The notes beneath the pieces were generated by a model. The model did no database searches. It was not told the origin of the DNA and was given only the letters and a program-made list of their open reading frames with translations. A stretch of 29,252 nucleotides of DNA. Origin: a virus. Each line of letters starts with the position of its first letter. Within the stretch, counting starts at the first letter, position 1. The translations under genes and the position numbers were made by a program. Below are positions 9,103-18,799 of the stretch, one piece after another. The stretch covers positions 1 to 29,252 of IMG/VR virus record IMGVR_UViG_3300028025_002025. One strand, written 5' to 3'.

Positions 9103-10074
9103 ATGAGTTACATTAGCGGCGGTTCAACCATTCGGGCAGACCTAAACCAAGCCCTCATTGAAGCCCCTCAAGCCGATGTCGGTTTGATCGGAGCACAACT
9201 CCTCCCCTTGCAGAATGTTGATGCAAAGGCTGGAACATACCTCAAAGTTCAGTTGGCTGGTGCAGAGTTGTTGACCAATAATGCAACGGCTCGTGATGCT
9301 GGTTCGGGATACAGCCGAGGGATTCGTTCCTTTAGCTCTGCGAACTACTCGACCGATGAGTACGGCCTAGAGGAATTGTTGGACGATTCAAGCGTCAAGG
9401 ATTTGTCGCGTTTCTTTTCGTACGAAAGCGAAACTGCCAAGTTCTTGCTCCGTCAGTTGAAGCTCTCCCACGAGAAGCGGGTTTCCGATCTTCTCTGGAA
9501 CGCAACGACTCCCTTCACCATCGCTGACCAGACTCGTGCAGTTGCCTACACGAACAGCCTAATCACAACGGTTGATGTGGCTCGTGACGTAGCGACCGCC
9601 AAACTCGCTCTTAACCAGTATGGTTACGAGCCGAATTGTGTTGCGATGTCTGCTAATGTGTTTGAGTTGATCAGACGCTCCACCCTCCTACAGAATCAGT
9701 TTTTCGGAGTTATCTCCAATACTGGTGCTCGGTTGTTGAGCGAAGCTGAAATTGCGGCGGCTCTGGGAGTTCAGACCCTCCTCGTTGGTCGTGCGGCGAT
9801 CAACTCTGCCGGCAAGAACAAAGCCTACTCTGGTTCGTTCGTTGTTCCAGATACCAAGATCATCGTAGGTCAGATTGCTGGTGGTGAGTTCACCGCCGGT
9901 GGAATCGGACGCACCTTGGTTTGGTCGGGTGACTCGGCTGGTGGTTTCGTTAGCGAAAGCTATCGTGACGAAGCTCGCCGTAGCCAAGTGCTCCGGGTTC
10001 GTATGAACACGGACGAAGTTGTGATTGATCCGAACGCCGCCGTTCGTATCACCACCAACTACTCCGCAAGCTAA
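9103..10074 (+). CDS. Major capsid protein (HK97 fold expected)
   Basis: A 323-residue protein between the decoration gene and a strong terminator. Features are an N-terminal arm (residues 1-40), KAGTYLKVQLAGAE, GSGYSRGIRSFSSANYSTDEYGL-type E-loop/spine sequence, EELLDDSSVKDLSRFF, a long helix with LKLSHEKRVSDLLWN, and a C-terminal RVRMNTDEVVIDPNAAVRI. This order is that of HK97-fold coat proteins with no delta-domain fusion, since scaffold is supplied by the preceding protein. Codon use is biased toward common codons and CTA is rarer than in the neighbours, consistent with very high expression. A terminator follows within 30 bases of its stop. It is the only good candidate for major capsid here. 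Confidence 0.9.
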   Translation: MSYISGGSTIRADLNQALIEAPQADVGLIGAQLLPLQNVDAKAGTYLKVQLAGAELLTNNATARDAGSGYSRGIRSFSSANYSTDEYGLEELLDDSSVKDLSRFFSYESETAKFLLRQLKLSHEKRVSDLLWNATTPFTIADQTRAVAYTNSLITTVDVARDVATAKLALNQYGYEPNCVAMSANVFELIRRSTLLQNQFFGVISNTGARLLSEAEIAAALGVQTLLVGRAAINSAGKNKAYSGSFVVPDTKIIVGQIAGGEFTAGGIGRTLVWSGDSAGGFVSESYRDEARRSQVLRVRMNTDEVVIDPNAAVRITTNYSAS

Positions 10075-10100
10075 AGATTGTTGTTGGTTGTTTCCTCTGA

Positions 10101-10143
10101 AGAAGGGGGAGTGGGTGAATAACCTGCTCCCCCTTTTTCTTTT
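10101..10143 (+). terminator. Strong intrinsic terminator after the capsid gene
   Basis: GGGGGAG (10105-10111) pairs perfectly with CTCCCCC (10127-10133), extended by AA/TT, with an inner GGT/ACC, and the right arm runs into a T-rich tract (TTTTTCTTTT). It lies 27 bases after the major capsid stop and would limit read-through from the head operon. Confidence 0.9.
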
Positions 10144-10145
10144 AA

Positions 10146-10180
10146 TTGACATCCCCTAGCAGCTAGAAATCCTATTCAAA
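10146..10180 (+). promoter_or_regulatory. Candidate promoter for the glycan cassette
   Basis: A perfect TTGACA (10146-10151) begins three bases after the terminator T tract, exactly 35 bases before the GTG of the glycosyltransferase. The -10 region is poor (ATCCTA or TCCTAT at the right distance). If used, transcription would start at or very near the GTG, giving a leaderless or nearly leaderless message. No Shine-Dalgarno sequence is seen before that GTG. Confidence 0.45.
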
Positions 10181-11830
10181 GTGAAATATCCTATATCCGT
10201 CTATCTCATCGCTGGTAATGAAGAAGAGTATATCGCCAGATGCCTTGAGTCGTTTAAGCCCATTTCAGCGGAGCTTGTTGTTTGCATCGCTAGGGGGAAC
10301 GCTGTCGCAGATAAAACAGAGGAGATTGCGAAGGGGTTGGGTGCAAAGATTGTCCACTATACCAACAAAAACGATTGGCCTCATATTGATGATTTTGCCA
10401 CGGCGAGAAACACGGCACTAGAGGCTTGTTCTAGCGAATGGTGTTTATGGGTCGATGCTGACGATGTGATGTCCAAGGATGGGGCTAAGGTAGTCGAAGA
10501 GGCTATTGACCTTGCCATTGAAAAAGACGCTCACCTTGTGGCGTTAAAATATAATGTAGATAATGCTGGCCTCATCCCACTCCGAGAGGAAATCTCCAAG
10601 AGGGGCACTTGCTATTGGAAGAACCGAGTTCACGAAATGCTTGTTTGCAGAGAGCCGAACAAGACGATTGGGGTGGACAAAATTTTCAGAATCCACAAGC
10701 CCGATGGGTATAAGCCCAAAAGTGCTGAAAGGAACTTTAGAATCCTAGAGGATACACTTTTAACTGCCCCAAACGCCCTTTATTACCAAGCCCAAGAATA
10801 CTTTTTGTCTGGTAAATACGACAAGTGCATTGATTCCAGTATGCGAGCATTGGCATTTCCAGAGCTAGAGGACACGCTTCGATACGATGTGCTTTGCAAC
10901 CTTGGCAGATGTGTTCCAGAGAATGAGAGGCTTTCTTACCTTGGACAAGCCGTGTCCCTGCAACCAGACCGCAGAGAGGCTTATTTCTATATTGCAAACC
11001 ATTGGGCTGGGAAGGGGAACTGGGTAAAGACCTATGGGGCGGCAAGGGCTTGTATGACTTTGCATAGGCCAAAAGCCCACTACTGGAACTTGGTAGAGGC
11101 AATCTATAACTGGCAAGCAATGGACTTATACGAGACAGCATCGGTGTGCGTTGGAGAAACTGCCGAGGCTGAAAAGATTAAGAAGATGCGACCAGCCCCC
11201 AAGATTAGCATTGTTCACGCGACTAGGGGCAGACCGCAAGTTGCTTGGCAGAGGCGATGGCAGTGGCTTTCTTTAGCCGAGAGGCCACTAGAAATTGAGT
11301 GGCTCTTTATGGTCGATCACAACGACCCCATCGACTATACCCCCCACCAAGCCATTAGGTGCAATCCGGGTGGCATAATCAACGCTTGGAACGCTGGGGC
11401 AAAAATAGCCAAGGGGGACATCATCATTCAAATGAGCGATGACTGGACACCCCCTCGCCATTGGGATGCCCTAATTTCGAACGCTATTGGGGATACAAAG
11501 GCAGAGAAAGTGCTGGCAGTATCTGATGGGCTACGGCAAGACAAGCTCCTATGTATGGCGATTCTGACGCAATCTAGACTCAAGAAGCAGGGGCATCTAT
11601 TCCACCCCGACTACCAAGAGTCGGATGGCATCTATTCCGACAACGAGTTCACAGACAGAGCCTACGAAGAACAAGTGGTAGTTGAGGCTAGACATATCCA
11701 ATTTAAGCACGATAACCCTATGTTTAATGGCGGCCAACCAGACGAACAACTAAAGAACCACAACAAGCCAGAATTCTACGAGAAAGGAAAAGCGATCTAT
11801 GAAAAACGCAAACAAAATAATTGGATGTAG
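10181..11830 (+). CDS. Two-domain glycosyltransferase (GT2-like, with TPR-like middle)
   Basis: A 549-residue protein with two GT-A-type units. The first (1-180) starts MKYPISVYLIAGNEEEYIAR and has the sugar-nucleotide/metal motif VDADD (91-95), like WaaE-type transferases. The middle (195-335) is helical and TPR-like (ALYYQAQEYFLSGKYDKC, AYFYIANHWAGKGN). The second unit (338-530) starts KISIVHATRGRP, has FMVDHNDP, NAWNAGAKIAKGDI and an acidic IQMSDDW (416-422). Such proteins add sugars to glycans or proteins in the cytoplasm. It opens a cassette of sugar-transfer and methyl-transfer genes between capsid and connector genes. GTG 10181 is the first start in frame. Acceptor and sugar are unknown. 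Confidence 0.82.
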   Translation: MKYPISVYLIAGNEEEYIARCLESFKPISAELVVCIARGNAVADKTEEIAKGLGAKIVHYTNKNDWPHIDDFATARNTALEACSSEWCLWVDADDVMSKDGAKVVEEAIDLAIEKDAHLVALKYNVDNAGLIPLREEISKRGTCYWKNRVHEMLVCREPNKTIGVDKIFRIHKPDGYKPKSAERNFRILEDTLLTAPNALYYQAQEYFLSGKYDKCIDSSMRALAFPELEDTLRYDVLCNLGRCVPENERLSYLGQAVSLQPDRREAYFYIANHWAGKGNWVKTYGAARACMTLHRPKAHYWNLVEAIYNWQAMDLYETASVCVGETAEAEKIKKMRPAPKISIVHATRGRPQVAWQRRWQWLSLAERPLEIEWLFMVDHNDPIDYTPHQAIRCNPGGIINAWNAGAKIAKGDIIIQMSDDWTPPRHWDALISNAIGDTKAEKVLAVSDGLRQDKLLCMAILTQSRLKKQGHLFHPDYQESDGIYSDNEFTDRAYEEQVVVEARHIQFKHDNPMFNGGQPDEQLKNHNKPEFYEKGKAIYEKRKQNNWM

Positions 11831-11850
11831 GAAATCGAAAAAGGGGGAGA

Positions 11851-11869
11851 ATACCAAGGGGCTTGGTAT
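11851..11869 (+). promoter_or_regulatory. Perfect hairpin covering a ribosome-binding site and start
   Basis: ATACCAAG (11851-11858), GGG loop, CTTGGTAT (11862-11869): an 8-bp perfect stem with a 3-base loop. It buries the GGGG that would act as ribosome-binding site and the first two bases of ATG 11868. It could damp translation of the small gene, or be unwound by ribosomes arriving from the ATG at 11799. Confidence 0.5.
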
Positions 11870-12053
11870 GATTACCTTCGGCAAGTCTAGCATAGACAAA
11901 ACAAAGTATGTGCTAGTGGATATCACCTATGATGATAAGGCTGGGAAGGAATTGTATGAGGCTGGGATGCTTGCCTTAAAGCACGACCCAGAAGCCGTGA
12001 TTGAGTACGCAATCAAAAAAGCATTAGCTGGAATGGCAAAATGCAAGAAATAA
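11868..12053 (+). CDS. Small protein of unknown function in the glycan cassette
   Basis: A 61-residue acidic/lysine-mixed protein: beta-like start (MITFGKSSIDKTKYVLVDITYDD), then a helix (AGKELYEAGMLALKHDPEAVIEYAIKKALAG). No family is recognised. ATG 11868 is preferred because the ordered part begins there and GGGG lies six bases upstream, but that site is inside a hairpin. An in-frame ATG at 11799, overlapping the glycosyltransferase end and preceded by AAAGGA, would add 23 lysine-rich residues. The end overlaps the next gene by 13 bases, so it is likely co-translated with the methyltransferase. Confidence 0.6.
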   Translation: MITFGKSSIDKTKYVLVDITYDDKAGKELYEAGMLALKHDPEAVIEYAIKKALAGMAKCKK

Positions 12054-12649
12054 CCATTAACGACTCATTTGGAAAAGCCCTTACAAAATATAGCGAGGGG
12101 CTAGAGGTTGCCCTAGAAATTGGGGGAGGAACTGGGGATGGCTCAACTCAATGTGTTAGGACAAAAAGGCTATTCAGCATCGAGAACCACCCAGACCGCA
12201 TCGGTAGACACTCAATGAACCTATCGGCAAAGGGGGGCGTTTCCATCAATGGAACTGCAACCTTGCCGAAGCTATGGATGAACCAGTTGGATATAGCGGA
12301 ATTTTATGGCACAAACAAAACTGCACTTAATCAATATCCCCTAGATCAAGTTCTTGGATGGTATCACGAATGCATTGAATTTGCACAACCATACAGCACC
12401 AACGCAATCGAGGACATTCACTTTGAGCATAATGTAGATTTTAACTTTGTGCTGATTGATGGCTCTCCTTTTTCTGGTGAGGCCGAACTTCGTTGCGTAA
12501 GACCATTCCTAGCAGAGAAGGCCATCATAGCCCTAGACGATGTGAACGATATTAAGAACTTGGCGAACTACAACAAGCTCAAGGGATTTGGGAAACTTCT
12601 CTGGGAGGATTGGTCGGTTCGTAATGGTGCGGCCATCTTTCAGTTATGA
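12041..12649 (+). CDS. SAM-dependent methyltransferase-like protein
   Basis: A 202-residue protein with a class I methyltransferase layout: glycine-rich loop ALEIGGGTGDGS (28-39) for SAM, FSIENHP (50s) at the end of strand 2, FVLIDGSPFSGEAE as strand 4 with the acidic residue, and IIALDDVNDI as the following strand. The pattern resembles glycan-modifying methyltransferases with an LIDG motif. It is the first of three consecutive methyltransferase-like genes, all overlapping by a few bases. The substrate is not visible; a sugar on the cassette's glycan is the simplest guess. An insertion (TLPKLWMNQLDIAEFYG onward) is specific to this protein. Confidence 0.65.
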   Translation: MQEITINDSFGKALTKYSEGLEVALEIGGGTGDGSTQCVRTKRLFSIENHPDRIGRHSMNLSAKGGVSINGTATLPKLWMNQLDIAEFYGTNKTALNQYPLDQVLGWYHECIEFAQPYSTNAIEDIHFEHNVDFNFVLIDGSPFSGEAELRCVRPFLAEKAIIALDDVNDIKNLANYNKLKGFGKLLWEDWSVRNGAAIFQL

Positions 12650-13215
12650 CCATTATTCAAATTGGGTGTAATGATGGGAAAGATCATATCCTAGATTTTT
12701 GCACAAAGAACAAGGACAGCATCGAGGCAATACATCTCATAGAGCCAAACCCAGAAGCACTTGAGGATTGTAAGCAGACCTATTCAGATTTTAAGCAAGC
12801 CCGATTCTACAACCTAGCGATTGTCCCAAATGATGCTGACTCTATTGACTTGCACATTCCACGCTCAAAGTCATCCAACGCTCACGCCTCAACATTAAAA
12901 AATCACTTAACAGATCACGGCCATATAGATTTTGATACAATCAATGTTCCAGCCACAACCCTTGCTGGTTTCCTCGACTCAAATAAAATCGAGAAGTGCG
13001 ATAGGCTCTACATAGACACAGAGGGCTTGGATTGTGCGATTGTGCTTAACTTCAATATTCAAAAATACAATATCTCAAGAATTGAATTTGAGACTCTTCA
13101 TTCCGATGGATTTCTAGCAAAGGGGAAAAACTACAACTCCTGCATCGAGAAGCTAAAAACCCTTGGCTACAAGGAAACAGAGGCTGGCGAATATAATGAG
13201 GCTTACGAGCTATGA
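12646..13215 (+). CDS. FkbM-family methyltransferase
   Basis: A 189-residue FkbM-type O-methyltransferase. It starts directly at the SAM-binding strand (MTIIQIGCNDGKDHILDF), has the ribose-binding acidic residue in IHLIEPNP, then FYNLAIVPND, the long central segment with VPATTLAGFLD, LYIDTEGLDCAIV (the conserved D-x-E-G of FkbM proteins) and IEFETLHSDG. FkbM members commonly methylate sugar hydroxyls in polysaccharides and natural products. It shares ATGA overlaps with the genes on both sides, so the three methyltransferases are likely translated in step. Family assignment is firm; the acceptor is unknown. Confidence 0.85.
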   Translation: MTIIQIGCNDGKDHILDFCTKNKDSIEAIHLIEPNPEALEDCKQTYSDFKQARFYNLAIVPNDADSIDLHIPRSKSSNAHASTLKNHLTDHGHIDFDTINVPATTLAGFLDSNKIEKCDRLYIDTEGLDCAIVLNFNIQKYNISRIEFETLHSDGFLAKGKNYNSCIEKLKTLGYKETEAGEYNEAYEL

Positions 13216-13751
13216 ACCATATTAGTGCGGAATTTGAAGAGGATTGGTTTAATTCTCCCAATGTCTATAAAATGCTTGTTGAGAATTGTAGGGACGATGG
13301 GAAGATTGTTGAGCTTGGGGCGTGGAAGGGGAGAAGCTCGGCGTTTCTTGTGGTTGAGGCATACAATAAAAGCCCAAAGATCGAGGTTCATATTGTTGAT
13401 ACTTGGGGTGGGAATCCCTTTGATGGCTCGCAAGATCAATCTACCGACCTATATAATAAATTTATTTCTAATATGTCTCTCCTTGCCAGACCCTACCAAG
13501 CCCACAGAATGACAACAAACGAGGCCGCAGGGCTTTTTGAGGAGGAATCTTTAGACGCAGTTTTTATAGACGCAGACCATTCGTATGAGGCCGTGAAGCT
13601 AGACATTCAAAACTGGATGCCCAAAATTCGCAAGGGCGGGATACTGGCTGGGCACGACTATACTTCTGCTTGGCCGGGGGTCGTAAGGGCAGTTGATGAG
13701 CTATTTCCAGAGGCTGAAAAAATAGACTATTGTTGGGTAAAACAATGTTGA
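13212..13751 (+). CDS. Class I SAM methyltransferase (Methyltransf_24-like)
   Basis: A 179-residue enzyme with motif I IVELGAWKGRSS (31-42), VHIVDTWGG (strand 2, acidic residue), AVFIDADHSYEAVKLDI (motif typical of the Methyltransf_24/cephalosporin-hydroxylase-like group) and GGILAGHDYTSAWPGVVRAV. These enzymes often act on sugars or small metabolites, with the D-x-D-H helping metal or substrate binding. The gene starts in an ATGA overlap and its end overlaps the next glycosyltransferase by seven bases (ATGTTGA). With the two preceding genes it forms a run of three methyltransferases that are different families rather than recent duplicates. Confidence 0.85.
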   Translation: MNHISAEFEEDWFNSPNVYKMLVENCRDDGKIVELGAWKGRSSAFLVVEAYNKSPKIEVHIVDTWGGNPFDGSQDQSTDLYNKFISNMSLLARPYQAHRMTTNEAAGLFEEESLDAVFIDADHSYEAVKLDIQNWMPKIRKGGILAGHDYTSAWPGVVRAVDELFPEAEKIDYCWVKQC

Positions 13752-14512
13752 CCATATTTACCATCGTCCTGAATGGGATGCCCTACATCCAGAGGCATCT
13801 TGCAGAGTTTCAAAAGCTAAAGATTCCTTGGGAGTGGAGGATTGTCGAGGGAGTGGCCGAGCCTCTGGGATGCACCCGATGGTGCAAGCAAGTACCAGAG
13901 AAGTATCACAAGAACTTTGTAAGCGTGGACGGAACGCACGAATACCTTGAGAGCATTAGGGGCGAGAATGTTTCAGTCTATTGGCAAGCAAAACCCTTCC
14001 CCGGTAAGCTGGCGATGATTAGCGAGGCGTTGCGAGGCGTGGAGAAGGGCGTTGTGATGGAGATTGATTCCGATGAGATATGGAGAGCCGACCAGTTAGA
14101 TGCAATCTTTGGGCATCTCAAGGGATGCGAGGAGGGACGAGCGATGCAGTTCCATTGTAACTATTATGTTGGACAGAATAAAAAAGTAGTCACTAGGGAG
14201 GGCTTCGGCTCGAACTGGTACGAGTGGTTTAGGGCTTGGAAGTGGGGCAGGGGAGTTGAATTCGTTAGCCACGAACCCCCCAAACTTAATGTCCAATCAA
14301 TGATGATTCCGAGGGGAGTTACAGAAACTTGGGGGCTAACCTTTGACCACTTCGCCTACGCAACAAAAGAACAAGCACAATTCAAGGAAGATTTCTATGG
14401 ATATAAGGGGCTAGTAGAGGGATGGGAGAAGCTACAAGAAACCACCAGCCCAGTTAGGTTGAGAGATTATTTCCCATTCATAACAGACAAGAGCGTAGTC
14501 GATGAGTGTTAA
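13745..14512 (+). CDS. Glycosyltransferase-like protein (GT-A type)
   Basis: A 255-residue protein that begins like a GT2 enzyme (MLTIFTIVLNGMPYIQRHL), has a helix-strand core (LAMISEALRGVEKGVVMEI) and an acidic IDSDEIW where the metal/sugar-nucleotide DxD is expected, then FHCNYYVG, NWYEWFRAWKWGRG, FVSHEPPKL and a His-containing LTFDHFAYATKEQ. The pattern is that of glycosyltransferases that work on glycans where a lipid or protein acceptor is close. ATG 13745 overlaps the previous stop; an in-frame ATG at 13730 would add five residues. Donor and acceptor are not apparent. Confidence 0.72.
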   Translation: MLTIFTIVLNGMPYIQRHLAEFQKLKIPWEWRIVEGVAEPLGCTRWCKQVPEKYHKNFVSVDGTHEYLESIRGENVSVYWQAKPFPGKLAMISEALRGVEKGVVMEIDSDEIWRADQLDAIFGHLKGCEEGRAMQFHCNYYVGQNKKVVTREGFGSNWYEWFRAWKWGRGVEFVSHEPPKLNVQSMMIPRGVTETWGLTFDHFAYATKEQAQFKEDFYGYKGLVEGWEKLQETTSPVRLRDYFPFITDKSVVDEC

Positions 14513-15173
14513 AACTATCAAATACTCGCAGAGGTTAGGGGATGTGCTTCGTTGCTTACCAGCCGCAAAGTACCTAGCCGACCAAGGCCACGAGGTTTTC
14601 TTTGATTGCTTCGAGCAGTATCACGGAGTTTTTGATTTGGTTAGTTATGTGAAGGCTGGGAGCAAGGGAGATGTTTTGGATTTGGAGATATGGCCGAACA
14701 GATACAACGACTTCATCAAAAGTAGAAAGACTTGGCACGACTTTGTCTATAGTCACCCAGAGATTAGGGAAGCAGACAAGACCAATATCGTCCTAGACAA
14801 GCTAGACGATAAGCCAGCCGAGGGACTTCCAGAATCTTACAACCTAGTTGCCCCTTTCGGTATATCTCAAACATTCTACCGCAACCCGCTAACACTAATC
14901 CAAGACGCAGTTAAAGAGTTTGGAAAAGATAATGTGTTTGTTTTATGTCCACCCGACATAAGGATACAAGGATTGAACACCTACACAGCCAAATCATTTG
15001 AGCAAATGGCAAAGGCCATTAGGGGAGCAGATCAATTCTTGGCGGTCAACTCAAGCCCTATCATCATAGCTTCTGCGGTTAGGAGGGGCAAGGAAAGCAA
15101 GTTTTGGGGCGAGAAAAACGAGGCAGAAGTTCAGAATGTTTTTCACTTTGAGGGGCTAGTAAGGGTGGATTGA
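14502..15173 (+). CDS. GT9-like (heptosyltransferase-type) glycosyltransferase
   Basis: A 223-residue GT-B-like protein. The N-terminal half begins KTIKYSQRLGDVLRCLPAAK, the GD-x-L-x-x-x-P-A pattern of ADP-heptose:LPS heptosyltransferases, followed by GHEVFFDC. The second half has YNLVAPFGISQTFYRNP, VFVLCPPD, and the acceptor-side AIRGADQFLAVNSSPIIIASA, which parallels the D-T-G-x-x-H-x-A region of GT9 enzymes but with NSSP in place of D-S/T-G. It is shorter than typical heptosyltransferases (about 320-350), so it is compact or divergent. It overlaps the previous gene by 11 bases and ends the cassette; the connector genes resume 16 bases later. Confidence 0.68.
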   Translation: MSVKTIKYSQRLGDVLRCLPAAKYLADQGHEVFFDCFEQYHGVFDLVSYVKAGSKGDVLDLEIWPNRYNDFIKSRKTWHDFVYSHPEIREADKTNIVLDKLDDKPAEGLPESYNLVAPFGISQTFYRNPLTLIQDAVKEFGKDNVFVLCPPDIRIQGLNTYTAKSFEQMAKAIRGADQFLAVNSSPIIIASAVRRGKESKFWGEKNEAEVQNVFHFEGLVRVD

Positions 15174-15189
15174 CATAAGAGGTGGTTTT

Positions 15190-15507
15190 ATGGCTGGCAG
15201 TATCCCCACCTCCTACTTCGCTACTGACCTCTCTTATATGATTGAGGACTTGTACCAAACTGTTACTGGTTTGGGTTCGTCCTCTGTTTCTGCTTCTGTC
15301 ACAGACCTAACAACGGCAAGCGAGCTAGAGATAGGTGGTGAGGTGTTTAGAGTGACGCAAAGCCTAGTCGTTTTAGCTTCTGGAATCTCTGCCCCAGTCA
15401 TCGGCTCTCTTTGCACAGTTAGCGGGGTGGAGCGTATGATCGGAGGATTTTCGCAAAGCACAGATGGCCTTTCATTTACCATCGAACTTGCGGAGATTAC
15501 GACCTAA
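15190..15507 (+). CDS. Small head-tail connector candidate
   Basis: A 105-residue protein, Ser/Thr/Val-rich beta (TGLGSSSVSASVTDLTTASE, IGGEVFRVTQSLVVLASG, CTVSGVERMIGGFS). Position after the head genes and before two neck-like genes suggests a head-completion or tail-attachment protein (gpFII-like role), but no signature motif is visible. It has a good ribosome-binding site (AAGAGGTGG) before ATG 15190, and its stop overlaps the following ATG by one base (TAATG), indicating co-translation with the neck gene. Confidence 0.55.
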   Translation: MAGSIPTSYFATDLSYMIEDLYQTVTGLGSSSVSASVTDLTTASELEIGGEVFRVTQSLVVLASGISAPVIGSLCTVSGVERMIGGFSQSTDGLSFTIELAEITT

Positions 15508-15923
15508 TGGCCTCAATAGAGAGGGAGGTGGAGAACGCCCTCCTTAATGTTGTTTCTGGGATTACTGGGGTGAACTTCTTTACAAGTGAAAGAGGCACGG
15601 CTAGGACGATGCCGAGCGTTACGGTTCAAGCCCAAATTAGCGGCGAGGAGGTTATGCCATTTTCCGGAGTGTTCAGAACTCCCGCATCTATTACCTATGT
15701 TGCTAGGGCAGATACAACCCTACGAGCAGACTTTGATGCGAAGTTCTACGACATCTTGGAACAACTCTATCGTGACCCAGACCTAGCGAGCTACCTTACG
15801 ACAAATTCAAACATCACTTTTTATGTCGCAAAGGTAACAGATGATACCCCATCCGTAATAGGGCAAAACCGAACTTGGTCAAGGGCTATGACTTTAGACA
15901 TCATAGCAACCGCAAAAAAATGA
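15507..15923 (+). CDS. Neck/tail-completion protein, copy A of a duplicated pair
   Basis: A 138-residue protein with an N-terminal helix (EREVENALLNVVSGITGVNFF), a beta-rich middle (MPSVTVQAQISGEEVMPFSG) and a last strand WSRAMTLDIIAT. Its architecture fits proteins that terminate the tail tube or link it to the head (gpU/gpZ-type position). It is clearly related to the next protein: the helix, the P/T-x-V/I core, and the C-terminal YVAKVTDDTPSV / YTARITGQTPTI and RTWSRAMTLDII / RAWQRGLKMSLI segments line up. Start ATG 15507 overlaps the preceding stop by one base. Confidence 0.6.
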   Translation: MASIEREVENALLNVVSGITGVNFFTSERGTARTMPSVTVQAQISGEEVMPFSGVFRTPASITYVARADTTLRADFDAKFYDILEQLYRDPDLASYLTTNSNITFYVAKVTDDTPSVIGQNRTWSRAMTLDIIATAKK

Positions 15924-16411
15924 CGAACAGCGTTCAAATCAATGTGGAGGATGCTCTAGACAATCTTCTAGCCAACATCCCCAATCTCAATGTCTATAAG
16001 ACTAATAGGGTTGGGGCAAAGCTATTCCCATTTGCCACAATCTCGGCTTCCGTAGGAGATCAGCTTCTTGGAAACTATACCGGGGTCTATGAAGTAGCCG
16101 TCACAATCGACTACTCCGACACGGCGGCCAAGATTAGCCAAGAGGCTTTTGACGCTGAATACTGCTCAATCTTTGAGGCTTTCTATTCCGAAACTCCACC
16201 CCTCTTTACCAAGATTCAAAACAACATAATCGATACCAAGGTCTATACTGCTCGCATTACTGGTCAAACCCCAACCATACGAACCGCTAAAAGGGCTTGG
16301 CAGAGGGGGTTAAAGATGAGCCTTATTTGCACCCCATCAGAACTAGACGATGGCTTGCGGTACTTGAATTTCTACCAAAAGCAAAACTCAATGTATGTGG
16401 CAGTCATTTAA
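15920..16411 (+). CDS. Neck/tail-completion protein, copy B of a duplicated pair
   Basis: A 163-residue protein paralogous to its upstream neighbour, with the same order of segments: VQINVEDALDNLLANIPNLN helix, FPFATISASVGDQLLGNYTG sheet, EAFDAEYCSIFEAFYSE, YTARITGQTPTI and AWQRGLKMSLICT. It has a longer C-terminus (PSELDDGLRYLNFYQKQNSM) that copy A lacks. Start ATG 15920 is in an ATGA overlap with the stop of copy A; an upstream in-frame start would lie inside copy A and lacks similarity. Both copies may form a hetero-oligomeric ring, or one may have a new role. Confidence 0.6.
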   Translation: MTNSVQINVEDALDNLLANIPNLNVYKTNRVGAKLFPFATISASVGDQLLGNYTGVYEVAVTIDYSDTAAKISQEAFDAEYCSIFEAFYSETPPLFTKIQNNIIDTKVYTARITGQTPTIRTAKRAWQRGLKMSLICTPSELDDGLRYLNFYQKQNSMYVAVI

Positions 16412-18771: not shown

Positions 18772-18772
18772 T

Positions 18773-18799
18773 TTGACACCCTTAAAGTAGAACTATGAT
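18773..18799 (+). promoter_or_regulatory. Candidate promoter before the tail-tube gene
   Basis: TTGACA (18773-18778) and TATGAT (18794-18799), separated by 15 bases, lie in the 55-base gap before ATG 18827. Both hexamers match sigma70 consensus well, but the spacing is two shorter than ideal. GAGG is present upstream of the ATG, so a normal leader would be made. Confidence 0.5.

Follow-up and report, generated by a model that had tools for sequence, protein, structure and literature searches.

A conserved slot for glycosyltransferases and methyltransferases in the structural block of two uncultivated phage clades, a candidate modular virion-glycosylation locus

We analysed the complete IMG/VR record IMGVR_UViG_3300028025_002025 (29,252 bases, positions 1 to 29,252; hereafter the window), which also encodes a GpA-type terminase and a lambda-type portal. 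Downstream of the major capsid protein gene, seven overlapping plus-strand ORFs span 10181-15173, with neighbours overlapping by 4-32 bases; this run had been called in a first-pass annotation of the same DNA, and every one of its ORFs is there. The genes are named c1 to c7 from left to right, and the ORFs have the coordinates given below, save that the sixth (13730-14512) opens earlier than the c6 gene assigned to it.

9103..10074, plus strand: major capsid protein gene, left neighbour of the cassette (phrog_1005 major head protein, 1.6e-26).
10099..10139, plus strand: terminator-like hairpin in the gap between capsid gene and cassette (18 pairs, then a T run).
10145..10151, plus strand: conserved ATTGACA motif before c1 (TTGACA at 10146).
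10181..11830, plus strand: c1, proposed protein-priming glycosyltransferase, 549 aa (profile, fold, presence in 69/69 intervals).
11799..12053, plus strand: c2, 84 aa (present in 61/69 intervals).
12041..12649, plus strand: c3, probable SAM methyltransferase, 202 aa (weak Methyltransf_24 match, conserved motifs).
12646..13215, plus strand: c4, FkbM-family methyltransferase (PF05050, 7.6e-12; TIGR01444 above cut-off).
13212..13751, plus strand: c5, Methyltransf_24 methyltransferase, TylF-like (PF13578, 2.9e-18).
13745..14512, plus strand: c6, divergent GT-A-like glycosyltransferase (PF00535, 0.045; conserved DxDE).
14502..15173, plus strand: c7, short glycosyltransferase of GT9/heptosyltransferase fold (by fold).
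15190..15507, plus strand: h1, small conserved gene, right border of the cassette (adjoins c7 in relatives).

The run had been placed between capsid and connector genes; the capsid side of this claim holds, while connector is a label by position, h1 and the other genes downstream of the cassette having no family match. Purifying selection acts on all seven cassette genes, with median dN/dS values of 0.05-0.15 that lie in the range of the capsid protein (0.11), and none of c1-c7 contains a membrane-like segment. The window's own cassette carries no sugar-nucleotide synthesis gene, hence the sugar donors must be host-derived. No tRNA genes were found in the window.

The first gene, c1, had been described as a double GT-A protein. 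Profile matches support both domains: c1 belongs to GT2 (GT-A) by PF00535 (2e-16; 60.7 bits against a cut-off of 23.3), residues 5-330 match phrog_13126 (1e-32) and residues 341-528 match phrog_14945 (2e-7). That description had overlooked the TPR-like helices lying between them, which are the main clue to c1; profiles and the predicted structure together give the order GT-A domain, TPR-like helices, second GT-like domain, the last of these being modelled at low confidence (pLDDT <50 from residue 483). The DxD motif (D92-x-D94) is invariant in relatives. A profile of 23 relatives compared with the PDB matched GmaR (1.4e-11, the best match to a natural enzyme) and SunS (1.3e-9), and the c1 model retrieved SunS and ThuS as its top Foldseek matches (9e-16), with structural alignments of Z 19.1 over 269 residues for ThuS and 18.2 for SunS. 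These matches cover both the GT-A and the TPR parts, and c1 has the architecture of a TPR-bearing protein glycosyltransferase of the GmaR/SunS kind, in which a GT-A domain is joined to a TPR/helical part. By profile and predicted fold, the first half of c1 is thus closest to enzymes that glycosylate peptides or proteins (SunS/ThuS, GmaR). A SunS-like model does not, however, prove a protein acceptor, because GT2 enzymes that build glycans (WrtF, TarS) score close behind (Z 16-17).

SunS, which is encoded by the SPbeta prophage, and ThuS are peptide S-glycosyltransferases whose GT-A domain is likewise followed by a helical/TPR-like part, and they are the best fold match of c1. Unlike them, c1 carries an extra C-terminal GT-like domain, has no bacteriocin peptide gene nearby and scores far below the cut-off of the SunS equivalog TIGR04195 (34.1 bits against 350); from its sequence, it looks like an enzyme of the SunS kind that is not itself a SunS. 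GmaR, the flagellin GlcNAc transferase, shares with c1 a GT domain and a TPR domain, whereas its C-terminus is an antirepressor domain (PMC9638930) where c1 has its GT-like domain. GmaR transfers GlcNAc onto flagellin, its TPR part having been proposed to recognise the substrate (PMC9638930), and the TPR part of FlmG binds its protein substrate, the flagellins (PMC7591256). Kinship, constancy and place together suggest a protein target for c1, a constant and probably protein-priming enzyme.

The second gene had been listed as a small unknown protein, and c2 indeed finds no family match in Pfam or NCBIfam and a PHROG match only at E 0.04. Three methyltransferases of different types had been proposed to follow it, two of which are clear: c4 exceeds the cut-offs of the FkbM profiles PF05050 (46.1 against 22.7) and TIGR01444 (46.0 against 37.7), and c5 exceeds that of PF13578 (Methyltransf_24; 67.1 bits against 26.3). 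The third, c3, matches PF13578 below this cut-off (E 0.018, 16.3 bits); it keeps a glycine-rich EIGGGTGDGSTQ motif and a DGSPFSG motif across relatives and is probably a SAM methyltransferase. For c6, put down as a second GT-A protein, the GT2 match (PF00535, 14.1 bits) also falls short of the family cut-off of 23.3, and the DxDE motif is conserved across relatives. The c6 ORF opens at TTG 13730; translation probably starts at ATG 13745, which gives 255 aa, since conservation begins at this codon and the proteins of relatives have the same median length.

The GT9-like character attributed to c7 is confirmed by fold and not by sequence family. Neither Pfam nor NCBIfam gives a match, placing c7 outside the GT9 sequence profiles; the predicted structure is confident (pLDDT 91.6) and has the GT-B fold of GT9 enzymes, aligning with WaaF at Z 15.0 (rmsd 3.3, 218 of 223 residues), with the protein heptosyltransferase TibC as its top Foldseek match (5.6e-7). 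The likeness to the GT9 enzymes WaaC, WaaF and TibC extends over the whole length of c7, although c7 falls short of WaaC and WaaF by about 100 residues and, unlike these, has no sequence-family match. PDB sequence searches with c6 and c7 profiles returned nothing useful.

The gap before c1 had been read as a strong terminator followed by a TTGACA belonging to the cassette. The first element stands: the 18-pair hairpin and its T run are retained in many relatives, namely where no extra gene is inserted at this point. The second does not. TTGACA occurs nine times on the plus strand of the window and never on the minus strand, and the heptamers ATTGACA/TTTGACA lie at 10145-10151, 15169-15175 and 18772-18778, that is, before c1, h1 and h7. 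Among distinct upstream stretches, the heptamer was found in 90/114 for c1 and in all of those for h1 (81/81) and h7 (47/47), as against 0 or 1 before the eight to nine other genes tested. No sigma-70-type -10 box was called at normal spacing from the conserved TTGACA, and before h1, where the heptamer lies ~20 bases from the start codon, a box at that spacing would fall inside the gene. With no -10 box and no specificity for the cassette, a sigma-70 cassette promoter was rejected; the motif seems to mark module borders in this phage group, and could act in regulation or serve as a recombination linker.

Relatives were chosen through capsid-gene searches of IMG/VR, blind to cassette content, yielding 69 distinct complete capsid-to-h1 intervals of 3.2 to 7.2 kb. 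The first gene is present in every one of them (69/69), with c3, c6 and c7 in 64/69 each, c2 in 61/69, c5 in 17/69 and c4 in 14/69; a set of 72 distinct capsid-to-h1 intervals gives a similar picture (genes 1, 3, 6 and 7 in 61-72, genes 4 and 5 in 17-18). Cassettes differ among relatives by swaps and insertions, the cargo gained in this way comprising an FkbM-like protein (x6), an MT23 enzyme, GT-A and GT7C enzymes, a B12-type radical SAM protein with an NAD-epimerase, a sulfotransferase, and a radical SAM protein with two transketolase-like halves. Clear sugar enzymes thus occupy the equivalent slot in relatives, and the original reading of the block as a glycan cassette of glycosyltransferases and methyltransferases is sustained. 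Lipid-carrier and flippase genes were found in none of the cassettes examined.

The arrangement extends to a second clade. A distant phage, first met on a contig of a Betaproteobacteria MAG and then on viral contigs, has a capsid protein 48% and a c1 38% identical to those of the window; its cassette runs from c1 through a GT-like protein, a HAD phosphatase and a sugar nucleotidyltransferase to another GT. In its clade mates (capsid proteins 71-74% identical to that of the distant phage), c1 is followed by an MT24 or MT23 methyltransferase, a GT47 protein that includes a radical-SAM-like part, and a GT9-like protein 41-45% identical to c7; h1-h3 come next. Across this clade, c1 is present in all 7 loci with enough sequence. 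The plan (c1 first, a variable middle, often c7 last) is thus old. The GT47/radical-SAM-like protein is an unusual pairing, a GT47 exostosin domain (1.3e-25) and a radical-SAM-like stretch (1e-3) standing in one protein of 616-625 aa (14480-16333 in locus L260; also in L258, L261, L262 and L264).

A search for cultured relatives among 50,697 phage records gave no match to the window's capsid protein; c1 matched in its GT2 half only (22-33% identity), and the best TerL stood at about 32%. For the host, a capsid-profile scan of genome contigs gave no matches, and a c1-profile scan led to one phage-like contig from the Betaproteobacteria MAG and to short contigs from a Chthoniobacteraceae MAG, which is not enough to assign a host. 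In the Chthoniobacteraceae MAG, c1 homologues are fused to a c5-like Methyltransf_24-like domain (725-867 aa; L251, L252, L159); these fusions lie on two short contigs and are followed by a GT-A-like gene. Such a fusion ties glycosyl transfer and methyl transfer together.

We also compared the inheritance of c1 with that of its neighbours. Across 76 genomes, c1 distances correlate with those of c7, h1, h2, h7 and h8 at r 0.83-0.89, as against 0.26 for the capsid gene; c2 (0.33) and c3 (0.40) track c1 weakly despite standing between c1 and h1. Divergent forms of c1 (17 genomes) always occur with a divergent h2 (50% or less to the window) and near forms (42 genomes) always with a near h2 (70% or more), in both cases with any capsid type. 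On gene trees, tail class changes 5 times for c1, 6 for c7, 13 for c3 and 20 for the capsid gene, counts that are rough, the classes being defined by identity to the window and the trees built by FastTree. Taken alone, this pattern would favour an acceptor in the connector or tail. Within the main c1 class alone, the correlation with h7 vanishes (-0.06), those with h1 and h2 are 0.63-0.64 and that with the capsid gene rises to 0.54, such that no structural gene stands out as the partner of c1; nor does c1 track the variable distal tail genes. Covariation was accordingly set aside as a means of naming a tail or connector acceptor, and the deep split of c1 with the downstream genes fits a non-capsid acceptor without showing one.

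From what is established directly, namely the seven genes with their family or fold assignments, the unchanging position of the locus, and a c1 that stays while the genes after it are exchanged, we propose, with a probability of about 0.6, that the cassette is a modular virion-glycosylation locus built of a constant c1 and exchangeable sugar and methyl enzymes. During particle production, c1 would hold a phage structural protein via its TPR part and attach the first sugar to it through its GT-A domain; the second GT domain of c1, c6 and c7 would then lengthen the chain, and c4, c5 and probably c3 would methylate its sugars, capping or diversifying it, with c2 acting as an accessory protein. 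With cargo that changes, every phage lineage would come to bear a distinct glycan. Cargo chemistry, sugar methylation included, is here predicted from enzyme families. That the first enzyme is constant agrees with a single, fixed acceptor, most likely a virion protein. A bolder version, which we hold only tentatively, would make the locus a counterpart of O-antigen loci: the constant primer would mark one fixed virion protein and a recombining slot would yield lineage glycans, with c1 and the GT9-like enzyme co-inherited with the downstream connector/tail block, not with the capsid, and the glycan sitting on a tail or connector protein, where it would act in adsorption or particle survival.

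The first-pass annotation had left the choice between decoration of the virion and a change of host LPS. The former gains weight from c1, which joins GT and TPR parts in the manner of protein glycosyltransferases and occurs in every locus. The latter, widened to any host surface glycan (LPS, capsule or S-layer glycan) that the phage might alter, for instance so that the cell is not infected again or progeny do not stay bound to receptor debris, we consider unlikely. Surface-polysaccharide loci also contain glycosyltransferases and sugar methyltransferases, the fold of c7 is common to the LPS heptosyltransferases WaaC and WaaF, and the association of c1 and c7 alleles with tail-side genes would fit a link to the receptor; the lack of membrane-like segments in c1-c7, and of any lipid-carrier or flippase step in the cargo examined, nevertheless speaks against such a role, the constant, TPR-bearing, SunS-like c1 points to a protein acceptor, and c1 shows no link with the variable distal tail genes. 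The gtr serotype-conversion operons of temperate phages also bring about a phage-encoded glycan change and encode membrane proteins (a flippase and a GT); the window's cassette has no membrane proteins and is not of gtr type.

It is less probable still that c1 transfers sugar to a regulator or to a host protein such as flagellin, pilin or some other surface protein: the closest characterised enzymes do modify flagellin (GmaR) or a secreted peptide (SunS), yet c1 keeps its position among the structural genes in both phage clades and the cassette is without a host surface gene. A role in hypermodification of phage DNA, by the addition of sugars and methyl groups, is very improbable, for although phages that add sugars to DNA bases are known (PMC12838424) and a QueD-like gene in the window hints at base modification, QueD and NDT genes were detected in 1/32 relatives (partial records) as against c1 in all 32, and the nearest kin of c1 act on proteins.

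Virion glycosylation as such is known from mycobacteriophages (PMC12363180; PMC12619734), among which Che8, Corndog and Myrna glycosylate capsid and tail tube proteins by phage-encoded GTs (PMC12363180). Phage-encoded GTs are common to both systems; the glycan has been demonstrated in the mycobacteriophages and is predicted from genes here, and the window's group differs from them in that exchangeable genes occupy a conserved slot within its structural block. The kind of process is therefore already known, and the new element is the architecture, in which the primer stays constant and the structural core holds a slot for exchangeable glycan genes, an arrangement of which our literature search found no description. 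If the proposed reading is correct, a virion-glycan locus belongs to the structural core of two uncultivated phage clades, and its sugar chemistry is specific to each lineage, with methylation and, in relatives, possibly also sulfation and radical-SAM reactions. Outside the mycobacteriophages too, glycosylation of the virion would then count as a core trait that diversifies, raising the questions of which particle protein is glycosylated and what drives glycan variation by selection among phages that infect environmental bacteria.

Elsewhere in the window, three ORFs within positions 500-2060 hint at 7-deazaguanine DNA modification: a possible DpdA-like one without a family match (500-1207), one resembling QueD (1093-1626; PF01242, 2e-22) and one for a nucleoside deoxyribosyltransferase (1623-2060). 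A gene for a 274 aa protein at 17421-18245 matches phrog_17104 (5.8e-60, unknown function), and in some relatives its homologue stands between the capsid gene and c1. In other relatives (L093, L102, L109, L018, L260 and others), the same gap holds a conserved protein of 96-98 aa, followed by a highly variable one whose N-terminus is conserved and whose remainder is LamG-like lectin, Gly-rich or other; the two perhaps form a particle appendage with exchangeable heads.
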